From Cannabis sativa (lineage: Eukaryota; Streptophyta; Magnoliopsida; Rosales; Cannabaceae), in NCBI RefSeq assembly GCF_029168945.1, contig NC_083603.1, forward strand, positions 44,082,396 through 44,146,395: DNA of 64,000 nucleotides, given 5' to 3'. The notes beneath the pieces were generated by a model. It was given only the letters and a program-made list of their open reading frames with translations, searched no databases and had not been told where the DNA came from. Position numbers and translations under genes: made by a program. Positions 38,425 through 47,467 of this stretch are shown here, piece by piece. The first letter of the stretch is position 1, and the number at the start of each line of letters is the position of its first letter.

Positions 38425-38797
38425 AACCATTAGTATAATTAAGAATTAAATTTCATATAATTTAAAAAAAAAATACTAAAATATATTATTGGTATTTAAT
38501 ATTTTTTTTGATGTCATATTATTATTAGTATAATTAAATATTTAGTATCGTATAACTTAGAAAAAATAACTTTTTCATCACTAGTGCCTAATAATTTTTA
38601 TAAAGTATCAGTAACTAATCACAAAGTGCCATTTTTAAGTAATGTCAATAGTATTATGTATTAAATTAAATTATTTGAAACTTAATATTTAATTGTATCA
38701 ATAATAATATAACATTTGCTATTAAGCATCATAATCTTTTAGTTGTTTAAGATTAACAAATTTTTTAGGGTAATGAGAAAGTGATCCTTTGGAAAAG

Positions 38798-38872
38798 GGA
38801 AATTTCAATTTTTGACCCTAATAATACAACCTATATCAAAATTTATACCCCTTTATAATTTGTACAAATTTA
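38798..38872 (+). repeat. Left terminal inverted repeat of the MULE
   Basis: It starts GGAAATTTCAATTTTTGACC and is nearly identical, in reverse, to 47383-47458 over about 75 bp. Similarity fades further inward. Confidence 0.92.
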
Positions 38873-39430
38873 TTCCTATAATTTTAAAAGTTTCCTAAAA
38901 TACCCCCTAAATTAAAAATTCCCTCTCTCAGACGTTCCCTCTCTCTTTCTGACGCTCCCTCTCTCTCTCGCTCTTCACGATCACGAACCCCCCCCCACAT
39001 TTCCCTCTCTCAGACGTTCCCTCTCTCTCTCATTCTCTCTGTTTTCCTCACGAGCACGAACCACAACCCACAAGCCCTCACGAACCCACAACCCGCTCCC
39101 ACACTCACGAACCCACAAACCAGACTTCCCCTCTCTCTCTCTCTCTCTCTGTTCTCCTCACGAGCACGAACCCACAACCCCTCACGAACCACGACGAGGA
39201 CGATCCAGGACCACGACGACGACGAAGCACTGAACTTCACTGAAGTGAACCATTGAACCACGAAAAGGTAAGTTTTTTTCTGTTTAAATTTTAGAAATTT
39301 CAATGCGAATTTGTGTATGTGCTTCAGATTTTGTGTGTTTTAGATTGTATATGCGAATTTAGATGTCAATAGTTGCATGTTGTATGTGTTGGATATGTTT
39401 CAATGGTGTTTTCTGTGTTTTTACTTATTT

Positions 39431-39907
39431 GTCGATGAAATGTCGATAGGATGTCGATAGGATGTCGATATGTGTAGGTATCTGGTGCTTGAACATTGTT
39501 GTCGACAGGTTATCGACGTAATGTCGACTACTTGTCGATGGTTTTACCATTGTTTTGATGTTGTGTAGTTTTGCTTACTAGAATGTCGACAATTTGTCGA
39601 CCGTATGTCGATAGTTTTGTCGATAATAAGTTGCGGTTCATTCTTTTGCAAGTTTATCGTTGTGATGTCGACAATTTGTCAATCGTATGTCGACGGTTTG
39701 TCGATTATAAGTCCCGCTCATTTTGTTGGTAAAATGTCGACGATTTGTCGACTGTATGTCGATAACTTGTCGATGTTGGTAGTTTGTCAATGCTCTTATG
39801 GTAATGTCGATAGAATGTCGATTGTATGTCGACTGTTTATCGACCAGTTATGAATGTTTGTTAATGTCGACAGAATGTCGACATGATGTCGATGTTATGT
39901 CGACATT
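39431..39907. repeat. RTCGAY array, left: seven four-unit blocks
   Basis: The palindromic core RTCGAY (GTCGAC, GTCGAT, ATCGAC) recurs every 11 bp in runs of four, about 44 bp each. Spacers of roughly 16-40 bp unlike the core separate the runs. I count seven such blocks. The array lies between the left leader with its GTAAGT donor (39268) and the DUF1985 start at 39955. Because 11 is not a multiple of 3 the array is not coding; frames over it such as 39605-39853 are shadows. Confidence 0.88.
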
Positions 39908-39954
39908 TCTTAACTTTTTTGACATTTAAATTTGTTTGGTTTTTGTTTTTTCGT

Positions 39955-42770
39955 ATGGCTCCTGCACTCATTATTCCAAAGACCCGAGCATTTCACGGCC
40001 GCGTCACATATAGGGCACCGGAATTTTTGCCAAAATTAAAGCTCGGCTTTGAGGAGTTCAACCTTAACAACACGACGAAGGAAAGCCGTTTCGGAGCTTC
40101 CGGAATGCCGTACCACCGACATTCTCCTCTGTTATTTCACTGATGCTCCACAAAATGAAAGTGGATGCTCGGGAGGAGTCGAGGATGAGGTTTTATGTTG
40201 GTCGGAAGGAGGTCCGATTCGGGGTCTTGGAGTTTGCACTCATTACGGTTTGGACTTCTCCTGGGGCCACTGTAAGAGGAGAAGGCTGCGCAGTCGCGCG
40301 CTCGGGGGTCGACCGACCGATCAACAAATATTTCAACCGGCTCGATAGTGTGAAGACAGAGCACTCCAACTTCGCTCACAACCGCGAACCCGAAGACTTG
40401 TACAAGCCCTCGGCTTGTGCTTGTTTGTGGAGTCGTGCTTCCGGGGCCGCGAGGCCAACGCGCCGATCACGCCTCACATCATTAGATATGTGGAAGACCT
40501 CGAGTTCTTCTTCCGGATTCCTTTGGGGAAGCACTCATTCGCCGACTCATGCACTCGCTTCGTAAAGACATGTTGAAACGAAGGCCAACTACGAGAAGAA
40601 GCCGAGTTCGGATGTTCGCGAGTGCAAATACACGGCATGGCTTCGCACCCGCAGTTCAATATTGGGCGTACGAGGCCATTTCGTGAGGTTGGCAAGAGGT
40701 ATGGCACGAACCACGGGATTCGGTTCCCGTGATGCCTTATTGGACGAGCAAAGGCGATATTGGGAAGAAAGACGTCGGCCGCATTATTTTCTAGACGGCA
40801 TGATTTTCACTTATGTTCCGAATAATTATTTAACATAAATGCTTGTAATAAATGCTAAATGGTTTTATTTTGATATTTGTTAAACCATAAACGTAAATGC
40901 GGAAGTGGTGAAGGGGCTCCTTCCACGGACGAGGAGGAGGCATTTGTGAGGACAATTTCTTACGATGGTGTGGAGAACACCGGTTGATGCTTGTGGATGA
41001 CACAGAGGCCGTGAGGCAGTAGTCAGTACCGTAGACTCAGTCCCGTACACTCGGGAAAGAGACACTCAGTACCAATTTTTGGAACTTTTTTTTATGTCTT
41101 CATTTTTTATTATTTTTGTTTTGTGATATTTGTTACATTGTGGAATTATCGTATGCTTACCGTATTTTTTTGATATATATTTTTTCGTGCCATCGGTTCG
41201 TAACCTCGGCCCAGGTGCACCATCTTCATCGAGGCGTTCGGGTGCCGAGTACACCGATTTAGTGGCTCGGTTGGATAGGATCGAGGCCGACACTCGTGTC
41301 CGTATGCCGCTGGCCGAGTCAAGAAGGCATACGAGACCACCATGGTAGCCGAAGGGTGGTCGAACGTAATTATGGAGCGAGCTCGTACACATATTGGCCA
41401 TGTTGAATCGTCCGCCAACGACGGCCTTCAAGACCGAGGCCCCCGGCAGATCCATCTACCCCACCACCACCGCTTCACCCCGTAGAAGAGGATGAGGTCT
41501 TCCCCGACGATTACGATCCTTATGAGGGAGCTCCAAATGCCGACTCCGATCGAGGCACAACCTCTTATCCATGTACATGACACCGAGTCGCAGGGTGAGA
41601 TTCGTCCATAGAGGCACAACTGCAAGGTTAAGAGTCGGAAGAGGAAGAGAAAGCCTCCCGTATGGTTCGGTGACTATACGGGAGATGAAGAGGAGACATA
41701 GGCCATCTTCGACTTTTGATCCCCGGAGCCACCGGACGAGAAATTGTTAACCACTTTCCGAAAGTGGTGTGTTGGACTCATTCCGAACCACCGACTTCGG
41801 ATTCGAGAAGTGGTGATTACTGGCCCAGATTCTTTTGGATAATGCTCACACCAAAGGAATGGCTTACGGAATGACGTAAGTAAAGTATTTTATAATATTA
41901 CTTCACTTTACAACTTTATGTGCAATTAATATATTTTTCGTGTAATCGATATTTCCGTTTATATGCAAGATATGATGCGGCAATGCATATGTTTGAGGAG
42001 GCGACGCACCGACTATCCACCGACATTTCTGTGGTGGTATCATTCTCTCCACATTCGTGACCGCCATGATCAAGAAAGGCATGGACGAGCCACAGGGGTC
42101 CGAGGAAAAACTTTAAATGGGAGGAATATATCCCGGACTACCGCACGTGGTTTCATAAGGTATTGTTTTAGTAAGATTTTAAATGTTAATTGTTTGGGAA
42201 GATTATTATGGTTTGTTAATTGTTTCGTTGTTCTCCGTAATTACGGTCCCAAGTCTTTGAGAGATGGAGGGGTAACGAGTTTATTTACTTCGTTCGCACC
42301 TTCCCCACGGCAAGACACCGGGTCACGCTGAAGTGGACATGTAGCCGTGGAAAATTAATGTCTACGACCGTGATTCCGCGTCCGTCATTTGGACCGCCAT
42401 GGAACCCATCTTGAAGGTTTGGTCGAACCGCCGCCCTCGCTAATCCTTGCAACCGGGGAATTTCCACATAACAACCGCATCATGGCGTTAGCTAACGGTG
42501 ACATCGCGGTGCTTCCAAAAATGCACGCGAGTCGAGCCACTCACGACTTAGTTCCGAAGTCGGCAAACTGTGCACATAGCGATAAAAAAGTACTATAGTA
42601 TTAAAATATGTTTTACGTTAGATCGACTTTACATTTTATTTTGCATTTAGTGGTGATTGTGGCGTGTATTCCATTGAGTATGTGGAGCATCTCATGATGC
42701 AACGTGGATTGACCGATGTGACGCCGACCGGATAGCCATGTTTCGTCGACGGTGGTGTGTCGATTTATTT
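39955..42770 (+). pseudogene. DUF1985 / Ulp1-like peptidase gene of the MULE
   Basis: It starts at ATG 39955 (MAPALIIPKTRAFHGR). 40143-40270 has the DUF1985 pattern (RFYVGRKEVRFGVLEFALIT). 40640-40730 has AVQYWAYEA and GKRYGTNHGIRFP. 41940-42770 holds Ulp1 C48 peptidase traces: an HRVTLKW box at about 42317 (canonically HWVTLKV), then VYDRDS, and GDCGVYSIEYVEHLMMQRG at 42656, which keeps the catalytic Cys. Several frameshifts and stops separate these parts, so it is inactive as it stands. Ulp1 enzymes cleave SUMO-type conjugates. In Arabidopsis VANDAL elements DUF1985 proteins (VANC) act as anti-silencing factors; a similar role in the live ancestor is my inference. Confidence 0.75.
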
Positions 42771-43009
42771 TACCAAAATGTCTACTGATTATATTTTTAA
42801 TTATTGGGACATTGTATATTTTGTGTAATTAACATTACGGTTATGTATATATAGATTTTCTTTTCGTTCAAATTTTGATAATTCTACGTGGTTTCAAATA
42901 TAAAATATCAACATTATTCAACAAAAATAACTATTAAACCTAACAATAATTAAAATATTTGAAAAATATTCAACCTCAACAAAAATAACTATGACAAAAT
43001 ATGCGTCAT

Positions 43010-45617
43010 TACAATATATCAAATTTCCCAACGAATACGTACAAGACGCCTCGGATGCGGCTTTGCATGTTGCTCCGTTGTGGCCCTGAGCACCACGCGC
43101 CGCACGGCTTCGTGGGTACGTAACCTTTTATCACTCGCACGGAAACGGCTTCTCCCGTCTTCTTCCGCGTTGCTTTTTCTTGGACGACTTCACAGCTTCT
43201 TTTCCACAGTGCCCCAACTTTCATATTCTCGATGTGTTCCGGAGAACTCAATCATCCTCGTCACCCGAGATTGATGGTATCATCGTAAATCGTCCTCCAC
43301 GTTTCTTTTGAATAATAAGGTGAGCAAAGCGTGTACACACTTGTGTTCGTTTTCAATGCCGCGCACATGCATGAAGGCAAGGAGTTTCAATAACGTGAAC
43401 ACGCCGCGCAGTGCATGTTTTTTCAACTAGATTCACATCACCACCTCTTTCACCCAGGTCCTACCAACGTTATACAAATTGGCTCCATTTCGTTGGACGC
43501 GCCCGTACCTTGCATTTTCATGAATTTTTGCCAAGTTTTTTTCGAAGAGCGTGGCCAAAGGGGTGGCACATTTGTCGGCATTTTCGAGGCGATCGGCGAA
43601 CCACGATTGGAGTGTGAACCTCGATAAATTCAACCAAAGTAGTTATTGGATATTTCGAACTCTTGTGACACTATTGAAGCTTTCGCAGCGTTGCTCGTCA
43701 TGATGTTGTATCTATCGCCCAAACAATAAGGGTGAGCCCACTTCTCAAACCCTATACTCTCCACATATGCGGCGATGGCCGATTCATCTTTCTAAGCTTC
43801 TCGAACTCTATCGCATTCAGTCTTCGACCCTGCGTAAGCAACATTATATATTTGGTTGTGAAAAGCATCGTCTTGAATTTGGCGTTCACGTTCATAACAA
43901 TGTGGTGATAGCATGCACGATTAATTCGGCCGGAAAAACGAGTTCAACAAAGATGATCAATGCTTTGATGCCTATCCGACACAAACACTAAGTTCTCAAC
44001 CACGCCAATCGCTACCCTCAACTTCCGTAAGAAATACGTCCAGAGTCGTTATTCTCACCGTCAACGATACCATAAGCAACCGCAACAATTGGTTGTTCGC
44101 ATCGTATGCCACAGGCAACTAACATTATACCGCCGTACTTCGTCTTCAAGGTGCCATCGATACTCAAAACAAGACGACAAAAAGAAAAGCCCCTTCTACA
44201 TGCACCGAGTGATATAAACAAGATTGAACCGCTCATCCTCTAAGTACAAGTCGGTAATGGTACTGGATTCTTCGTTCCAAAGATGTACAAGTACCGGGAA
44301 GCTTCATGTATGAAAACTCGGCGTACCCCTAGCATACGTAAGTCCCATCTCCCCGCACCTCCACGCCTTCACATAACTCATACCGATACCGTAGTTGTCA
44401 AACATGTCCCTCTCGTATGTCTTTAGCCTTGTACTTAGTTCCGTCTGGTGTACTTCCCTTAATAAGGTGGCCAACTACCCATGGTGCCGCTCGACTTGAT
44501 CCGAACGTCTCGCATTCAAGTTACATGTGTGTTCATTGTGAAATACAAAGGACCTCAAAGTTGTCGAATGCATCTTCTTCCTCCCCTCAATCTCCATTTA
44601 CAATCCGGAGCCTTGCATGTAACGTACAACACATCGGGGGATGACTTCTTCACCATCCACTCGAAATTGTTATTAAGGGCAAACCTACCCACAACTTGTC
44701 TCGCCTCTTCCTTGTTTTCATAAAAATTACCAAGCTCTATCACCCATGCTTCCTTACTTTGTAAACAAGTAGTTAGCTCATGATTTTCCATTATATCTTC
44801 CTTTGTCCACATGGGAGCTTTGAACTTGGTACAAACTTCGAAAGAGGAGAACGTTGAGAACGTTGCATGACGAGCATGTTCTTCGAATCCCGCCCGGTCG
44901 ACTACCGCTAGTTCCGGGTGTAGTGCGATTTTCACTACGAGGTTGTCGTTCTGCCGTGTACCTTGGTTACTCGGTACACACTCTAACCTCAACGATGGTC
45001 CCGCTACGGCTTCATCGACTGCCAAATCATGTTCATCGTCCATATTCAAATCTACAATAGGATCGTTATTGTAGAAGGGTGTATCGAACTCTTCAAACTG
45101 ATGAAATCCTGTCGCTTCGTTCTTGCCCTACATTGGCTCCGAACATCGAATTGGCTCGGAACACCTCTAAATTGGCCGGAACCTCCTCATTCACACCAAT
45201 CCCAACATCCGTTTCGGAACGCAAGACCCTACCACACTCCGAGGAGAGGATTAGTAGGCGGCGTAGGCTCCGAATTCCCAACTTTTCTCACCTTGGTCAC
45301 GAATAATGGCATAAACTCGTATTTGACATTGTTGCCCTCATCTCTAAAAACGTTCTCGCCTTGGCGTTCTCTTAATAACCTCGGCGCAACCATTTTTCCC
45401 TTCATGTACAAGGAACAAATCTCCAACTTTAAATCATACGCTACGGATCAACTTCCAACTCTTCATATAAAATTTGTCGCAGCTTCTTGTAGGGTTGTCT
45501 CGGTTGTAACATCAACGTCAAGCCGCTATTTGCTTTGTAGATCCAATTATAATTCTCACATAACCAAACACCATCGTACGATACAACAAGGAACACTTTG
45601 TCTCCTGCAATGCAAAC
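43010..45617 (-). pseudogene. MURA-type MULE transposase, decayed
   Basis: Minus strand. An acceptor TTTGCATTGCAG at about 45618 precedes an N-terminal domain (VFLVVSYDGVWLCENYNW). 45049-44555 is the MuDR DNA-binding domain (FYENKEEARQVVGRFALNNN, YVTCKAPDCKWRLRG). 44236-43700 carries the MULE catalytic domain, with the first Asp in LSIDGTLKTKYGGIMLVACG, an SDRHQSID block and an EFEKLRK block. 43410-43300 resembles the zf-SWIM pattern (HVIETPCLHACA). Many frameshifts and stops are present. The live enzyme would cut and rejoin element ends in the nucleus. Confidence 0.8.
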
Positions 45618-45659
45618 CAAAACAAGGTGAGTAAAGGAAAAAACACCAAAAAATAAACA

Positions 45660-46031
45660 TCGACATCCCATCGATATCAATGTACATAATGTCGAGAAGC
45701 ACAATACCAGTAAATTAGCATCGATTGTCGACATTGTGTCGACATAATATCGACATACAATCGACAAAAAAACAACCATGCTCGTCATCGACATACTATC
45801 GACATACCATCGACATTATATCGACAATAGAAACGGTTGCACATTAAATGTTAATAAATTTTACATACGTTCCCAACAACCCTTCTCAATCGAAACGTTG
45901 CATGTCGACACGTGTCCTATCGACAACATATCGACATGAAGTCGACATGTCGTCGACAAATGTGGTTGCAGTGACACTAAATTGGCATGTTGTCGATAAG
46001 ATGTCGACATAGTATCGACATTCTGTCGATA
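45660..46031. repeat. RTCGAY arrays, right inner: five four-unit blocks
   Basis: Three blocks lie at 45660-45831 and two at 45902-46031, with the same 11-bp spacing and four-core structure as the left array. The first block has one degenerate core. They sit between the divergent starts of the transposase coding exon (minus, 45617) and the small plus-strand frame (46214). Confidence 0.85.
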
Positions 46032-46113
46032 AATACGCCATTTCATGCGTTTTTCCCTGTACAGTTACGCATTTAATGACCATTAAATTTTCATACATTC
46101 CCAACATTTTTAC

Positions 46114-46121
46114 TGCTCTAT
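46114..46121 (+). promoter_or_regulatory. TATA box before the small MULE reading frame
   Basis: CTATAAAAGC at about 46115 is a near-perfect plant TATA box, about 95 bp upstream of ATG 46214. A pyrimidine-rich leader lies in between and two RTCGAY blocks lie immediately upstream. Confidence 0.5.
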
Positions 46122-46213
46122 AAAAGCAAAGGGAAATCTTATTCATAAGTGCTCTTGTATTCTACCTATCTCTTACTCTTAAAATTTTCTCTTATTCTCT
46201 TAAGTTTCAAATA

Positions 46214-46600
46214 TGGCCCCAAGAAAGAACGGCAAATACCCCATCCTAACTCCCGAGGAGCCGAAGCGGGAGGATGATGTCATGGTTACTCCCGCAATGC
46301 GAAAGTTTTGATGCCGCTCGAGCTTTCGAAAGAGAGCGAAACTAAGAACGAGTTCGTGTTCATGCAACTTGAAAGAGAATTTGCAAAATCGGCGAATGGC
46401 CGGCTCCACCACCCGGGGTTCCCCGAAGGATGCCGTCGTTGCAAACTCGGCATCTTCAACCAGAACCAAGAAGCTCGGAACATTATGCAAGTATTGCGTT
46501 CACTCGCCACAAGCCAAAGAATTTAAAAAAAATAATTTCTTATGTTATGGTTTGCTCAGGGGTTTTATTTAATGTTTTTTTTTTAATTTTTATGAACTTT
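46214..46600 (+). pseudogene. Small unknown gene remnant of the MULE
   Basis: The frame MAPRKNGKYPILTPEEPKRE ends at a TGA near 46309. Open sequence continues in other frames to about 46570 (NEFVFMQLEREFAKSANGR in one, KLGTLCKYCVHSPQAKEF in another), suggesting one or two frameshifts in a short basic protein. I recognise no family. Its position, as third gene beside a transposase and a DUF1985 gene, recalls VANB of VANDAL elements, but no sequence likeness was established. Confidence 0.4.
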
Positions 46601-46701
46601 TATTTTCTGTTTTTTTTTATGTTTTTTTTTTGTTATTTTTAATGAAGTTTATTTTCTGTCAATGTTATGTTTATGTTTTATCTACGGTATTTTTCCATTG
46701 C

Positions 46702-46955
46702 ATCGATATTTTGTCGACATGATGTCGACAAAATATCGATAACTTCTCAAAAACAACAAAATGCTCGTTGTCGACATTCTCCGTCGACAAACATGTCGAC
46801 AAAATGTCGACAAATAGTTAATCCCAAAGTTGGTTGCATGATGTCGATAACATGTCGACATCATGTCGACATAACGTCGATAATGGTCGTCACTGACCTT
46901 TCCTCCATAATCATCGACAAACCATCGACATTTCATCGACATATCATCGATAACA
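46702..46955. repeat. RTCGAY array, right outer: four four-unit blocks
   Basis: Four more blocks of four cores, mostly 11 bp apart (the second block has 12- and 13-bp steps). They lie inside the right leader, whose minus-strand GTAAGT donor is at 47098, mirroring the left array. Confidence 0.86.
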
Positions 46956-47382
46956 CTGGAAAACCCGTAAATCGATCGAAAACCGGATCTCCGCGTATCT
47001 CAAATTTTCGTACCAAAACAAATAGCTCCAACAATAAACACACGTATAACAATTTTAAACTACATAAAGTCAAACAAAATGCTTAAAATGCAACTTACCC
47101 ATTATAATGGTGTAAGATTCTTGAGTGATGTTGTATTGTGCTTCGGTTTTCCACCAACACCCACCGAGAAAACAACCATGCAACAGCAAATAATATCGTG
47201 TGGACGGATTTCACTTCGTTTTTCATAAATTTTTCAAATTTTTTCCTGTAGAGAGAGTGGTGCACGAGAGAGAGGGAAGAGGGAAGAGAGAGAGAGAAAT
47301 ACACTTTCAGATTTTAGCTTTTGTTTTTTATTTTATTTTTTTAAAAAAAGGGTAAAATGGGAAGTTCATGTAATTAATGGAC

Positions 47383-47458
47383 TAAATTTGTACAAATTAT
47401 AAAGGGGTATAAATTTTGATATAGGTTGTATTATTAGGGTCAAAAATTGAAATTTTCC
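47383..47458 (-). repeat. Right terminal inverted repeat of the MULE
   Basis: Read in reverse it starts GGAAAATTTCAATTTTTGAC and follows the left repeat almost base for base to TTTGTACAAATTTA. Confidence 0.92.
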
Positions 47459-47467
47459 TTGGAAAAT

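Follow-up and report, generated by a model that had tools for sequence, protein, structure and literature searches.

VANC proteins, studied in Arabidopsis, are rare sequence-specific anti-silencing factors that are encoded by transposons. Sasaki et al. (EMBO J, 2022) reportedly found that motif sequence, density and helical periodicity set VANC target specificity. Passages of PMC5735166 describe VANC21 and VANC6 as binding regions with dense short motifs in the non-coding parts of their own VANDAL elements; the VANC21 motifs share one orientation, and both proteins cause methylation loss in Arabidopsis (Hosaka 2017, PMC5735166). A VANC21 crystal structure is mentioned as unpublished in a meeting report (PMC8756742), and PDB entries 9lnj and 9lnk are assigned to the VANC21/VANDAL21 system by their titles. 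The Kaonashi-type VANC proteins with an Ulp1 domain (KIU) are described, in passages of PMC13317346, as recognising non-coding motifs of their own kind. Here we analyse a Mutator-like element (MULE) of Cannabis that lies in a 64-kb window, by which we mean the whole stretch of DNA studied (G000:C3:44082396-44146395, in a genome of 770.7 Mb). Its non-coding parts carry phased arrays of a short motif, which probably serve as targets for a VANC-like anti-silencing protein that the element family itself encodes.

The first-pass annotation of this DNA had described the hexamer RTCGAY as recurring every 11 bp in a MULE, always in runs of four, and the phase proved far above chance. RTCGAY occurs 88 times in the window, and 72 of these sites lie between positions 38800 and 47400. 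These 72 sites of the element include 41 pairs exactly 11 bp apart and 12 exact runs of four, whereas 300 dinucleotide-preserving shuffles averaged 12.9 sites and gave no more than one pair at 11 bp and no run of four. When all 256 words of the form RNNNNY were ranked by their lag-11 pairs within the element, the TCGA word scored 41 and the runner-up 5. Genome-wide, three RTCGAY sites in 11-bp steps were matched 6457 times (reversed control, 1), as opposed to 2 matches for 10-bp steps and none for 12-bp steps (reversed control, 2). Sixteen blocks, 7 on the left and 9 on the right, were recovered at the positions annotated. The word "always" does not hold, since one unit is decayed in block 39667, block 45659 has two exact sites together with decayed ones, and an extra exact site precedes blocks 45727 (by 7 bp) and 45919 (by 15 bp). 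The left array shows two irregularities, a fourth block with one decayed unit and a single 12-bp step. The features of the window copy are as follows.

38797..47458, no strand: whole MULE copy, found by the match between its terminal inverted repeats (TIRs)
38795..38883, plus strand: left TIR, 89 bp, sharing 95.5% identity with the right TIR
39431..39904, plus strand: left array, made up of seven four-unit blocks of WTGTCGAY in 11-bp steps, pointing toward the VANC-like gene
39955..42788, plus strand: decayed VANC-like gene, frameshifted in this copy; limits approximate, set by eye
43030..45620, minus strand: decayed Mutator transposase gene with DBD_Tnp_Mut and MULE pieces; limits approximate
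45659..45825, minus strand: right array 1, three blocks of minus-strand units lying 5' of the transposase gene, the first block with two exact units
45904..46030, minus strand: right array 2, two blocks and an extra site at 45904
46213..46526, plus strand: third, small gene, with 32 codons open in this copy; 3' limit approximate
46702..46951, minus strand: right array 3, four blocks
47372..47460, minus strand: right TIR, placed by the TIR match

Among 758 first-look candidates for the transposase stretch, we scored 40. Every one of them matched, in 41 alignments since one copy was split in two pieces, with an identity of 100% for the window and 91-95% for the other scored copies. More distant relatives, at 43-51% identity, are present in hop. 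We compared eight copies, namely the window, L046 (chosen by its array coordinates) and L047-L052 (six taken from the other 39 scored), whose pairwise identities range from 88.5 to 95.9%. Together they hold 134 clusters of at least two exact sites. Of these, 104 consist of four exact ones, and allowing for a decayed internal unit raises the number with four slots to 117; the others have 2, 3 or 5. The step is 11 bp in 341 of 368 cases. Across 82 distinct blocks, the slots just outside the four-slot frame match at background (2.0-2.4 of 6 letters); these blocks were preselected for at least three exact units in that frame, which by itself raises the match of the inner slots. Nine right clusters are present in 8/8 copies, and the left side has 7, 8, 7, 7, 9, 8, 8 and 7 blocks. 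Some left blocks were duplicated together with their spacer (L049, L050, L051), indicating that the arrays turn over between related copies by tandem duplication.

Our view of the rule of four is based on these eight copies plus two short elements. One, L007 (1410-2287), is non-autonomous and shows 74% similarity to the right end of L052, being related to that end of the window's family; its 246-bp inverted repeats hold quartets, some of them decayed. The other, L001 (1068-2102), groups its units 4-3-3 via 13-bp joints, contrary to the proposal that the number is invariant. Four is thus the rule in the family of the window, not in every motif-bearing element.

The first-pass annotation also predicted that the arrays would persist in relatives while their spacers drift, and that they are not a simple satellite. 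Both points agree with the alignments of the eight copies, in which cores are near-invariant and the spacers between blocks vary. In the right arrays of the eight copies, mean pairwise divergence of TCGA was 0.0036 and 0.0037 in two alignments, compared to 0.082 and 0.070 for the outer R and Y, 0.099 and 0.078 for bases between units, and 0.061 and 0.079 for spacers; the cores therefore diverge more than 20-fold less than the bases between units. Non-core CpGs diverged by 0.055 in one alignment (10 sites) and by 0.000 in the other (3 sites), compared to 0.007 for core CpGs, these sites being too few for a separate test of a CpG effect. The length between units is kept while its sequence varies, a pattern that a protein making contacts at fixed angular positions would be likely to impose. 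These findings bear on the view that the quartets are passive, being tandem repeats that slippage has spread and that no protein binds. Certain blocks have indeed been copied along with their spacers, and a fixed four could be partly inherited by such copying. The contrast between cores and neighbours, the variable bases at fixed length, the obedience of arrays of opposite orientation to the same rule of four, and the little similarity of most block pairs within one copy outside the cores all argue against passive spread, which we regard as very improbable; core versus neighbour divergence and the dissimilar blocks likewise led us to reject a simple satellite. Taken together, the arrays are real, conserved and functional-looking.

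The unit had been taken for a palindrome, and in this respect the annotation was not borne out. In the eight copies, T precedes the hexamer (position -1) in 229/229 left sites, compared to 129/229 for the opposite flank, and A follows it (+6) in 269/271 right sites, compared to 158/271 for the opposite flank. Because flank conservation is so one-sided, palindromic recognition was rejected; the conserved unit is a directional 8-mer, WTGTCGAY. It lies on the plus strand in left arrays and on the minus strand in right arrays, so that both face inward. Since the units of each array are directional and on the same strand, the protein that binds them would read direct repeats, presented on one face of the helix.

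The VANC-like gene of the family comprises a DUF1985 exon, a putative coiled-coil and basic stretch, and Ulp1/C48 exons. DUF1985 scores weakly in the window copy (E 0.073, below cut-off) and strongly in the L050 copy (2.1e-20), and the first-exon protein of the family is homologous to VANC21. The Ulp1 domain was recognised as Peptidase_C48 (3.4e-9) in P0023, a protein of the same family, and the protease contexts around H, D and C were seen by eye in frames of L052. As a separate observation, the N-terminus of P0023, a public gene model, resembles translated array sequence by eye and is probably an annotation artefact. The expectation that the family encodes a likely DNA-binding protein thus has a candidate in the DUF1985 homologue of VANC21. 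Since phased arrays and a VANC21 homologue in the same family fit the Arabidopsis VANC system, we favor, with good though incomplete confidence, the view that the arrays are the targets of this VANC-like protein.

The family encodes two other proteins that may instead be the binders. The transposase is an open 889-aa frame in L052 with MULE (3.1e-26), MuDR-type DBD_Tnp_Mut and SWIM domains. In Spm, the TnpA sites are subterminal and serve end pairing and self-regulation, and the Cannabis arrays could likewise be subterminal sites, bound by the Mutator transposase or by a helper resembling TnpA. Such a role would suit arrays that flank both sides of an element with this transposase, as well as the short L007 and L001, which retain arrays in or between their inverted repeats; passages of PMC10398659 moreover tie TnpA and MURA to demethylation. 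It would not suit the arrays at 45659-46030, which sit 1.4-1.8 kb inside the right end, by the inferred start of the transposase gene. The VANC21 homologue of the family also speaks against it, as arrays of just this sort are bound by the related protein in Arabidopsis. We therefore consider the transposase an unlikely binder. The second protein, of 109 aa with a CxxC..CxxC pattern, is full length in 4 of the eight copies, and its gene is flanked by right arrays 2 and 3. These features would fit a scheme in which the quartets are bound by this protein, or by a transcription factor of the host, and the VANC-like protein has other targets. The 109-aa protein had no family match in Pfam or NCBIfam, however, and its relatives were found solely in Cannabis plus one further record; we judge this scheme less probable still than binding by the transposase.

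The host element was correctly annotated as a MULE, as judged by its MULE transposase domain and short target duplication. TIRs are recognisable in 8/8 copies (86-112 bp, 75-97% identical; 75-78% in 3 and 82-97% in 5). The target-site duplication of the window copy is 8 bp, TTGGAAAA, at 38789-38796 and 47459-47466. By eye, 8-bp duplications of the form TTNNNAAA are present in the window, L048, L049 and L052, the 4/8 copies in which both element ends were located by script and duplications were hence readable. MULE target duplications are usually ~9 bp.

Several findings weigh against the VANC-type interpretation. Besides the alternative binders discussed above, part of the constancy of four may stem from whole-block copying. 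The Cannabis TIRs are recognisable, in contrast to the degenerate ones noted for VANDALs, without a threshold, in passages of PMC10398659. In view of these TIRs, we provisionally file the family under VANC-type systems and not under VANDALs. In addition, no RTCGAY array was present within 1.5 kb of the 30 best-scoring DUF1985 loci (L016-L045), each of which had 0-3 single sites, and among 11 other DUF1985 loci (L053-L063) a phased array was found in the upstream 2.8 kb only at L055. A visible phased array is thus not obligatory beside a DUF1985 gene.

The array at L055 (G000:C1:15489697-15492697; positions 1284-2441) consists of CGACC units in 10/21-bp steps within a ~91-bp tandem repeat of ~12 copies. 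It lies upstream of a DUF1985 stretch of a different lineage, and its motif, which is not that of the arrays above, likewise stands in helical register. Lag tests covered 11 of the L016-L045 loci, and then 6 of those 30 together with L053-L063. The lag-11 peaks were weak, being near or below the shuffle maximum at L016, L022, L040 and L043, slightly above it at L038 (0.51, compared to 0.49) and above it at L056 (0.55, compared to 0.49). L056 is T-rich, exceeds shuffles at many other lags and has no repeated word at lag 11, and several further loci, such as L057 and L058, rise above shuffles through simple repeats. None of these loci was accepted as an array, L055 being the sole one to hold up. 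Genome-wide, 150/150 scored DUF1985 stretches matched, of 1690 candidates, suggestive of a large VANC-like repertoire.

We propose that the DUF1985 region would read one WTGTCGAY 8-mer per helical turn. Because the edges of the blocks are sharp, the four units may represent one cooperative assembly, in which a block would be filled by four protomers or two dimers, so that even a short motif would yield strong and specific binding. Many such filled blocks, close to where the transposase gene, the VANC-like gene and the small gene begin, could then remove silencing marks or keep them off, and autonomous copies and short quartet-bearing relatives such as L007 would thereby be expressed and mobile. 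More tentatively, since every core is centred on a CpG, one possible extension is that an obligate four-protomer VANC unit sits on one-turn direct repeats, with methylation of the CpG cores gating its assembly, so that the element would behave as a bistable switch between a silenced and a self-demethylating state. If the VANC-type interpretation is true, the system extends to Cannabis, with many copies, and sets both the number of units (four) and their spacing (11 bp) for a protein-DNA assembly whose recognition motif itself contains a target CpG. A single 50-bp probe would then suffice for a direct test of how many VANC molecules bind and whether methylation affects binding, and the quartet might serve as a compact address for targeted demethylation tools.

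With respect to known systems, the first-pass annotation knew of no comparable arrangement, a statement superseded by the motif arrays in VANC-encoding MULEs reported in passages of PMC5735166. VANC21/VANDAL21 (Hi) resembles the Cannabis family in being a MULE with a transposase and a DUF1985 protein, here with a VANC21-homologous first exon, and in having a dense short motif of one orientation in its non-coding parts, with repeats gained and lost between copies. The VANDAL21 motif is YAGTATTAY, which has no CpG, as opposed to WTGTCGAY, and the 11-bp quartets, Ulp1 domain and recognisable inverted repeats set the Cannabis family apart. The Kaonashi-type VANC proteins share with it an Ulp1/C48 domain in the VANC-like gene of a MULE; their carriers are non-TIR MULEs, in contrast to the 86-112 bp TIRs seen here, and the passages on KIU make no mention of quartet arrays (PMC13317346). 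Spm TnpA and MuDR MURA are alike in that an element-encoded protein is linked to methylation loss, as given in parts of PMC10398659; they belong to different protein families, and the Cannabis arrays also lie deep inside the element, as helically phased quartets. Among the matches listed, from open-licence papers, we found no account of strict four-unit arrays. Taken together, these comparisons place the Cannabis family in a kind of system known from Arabidopsis, with a strict four-part layout that looks new.
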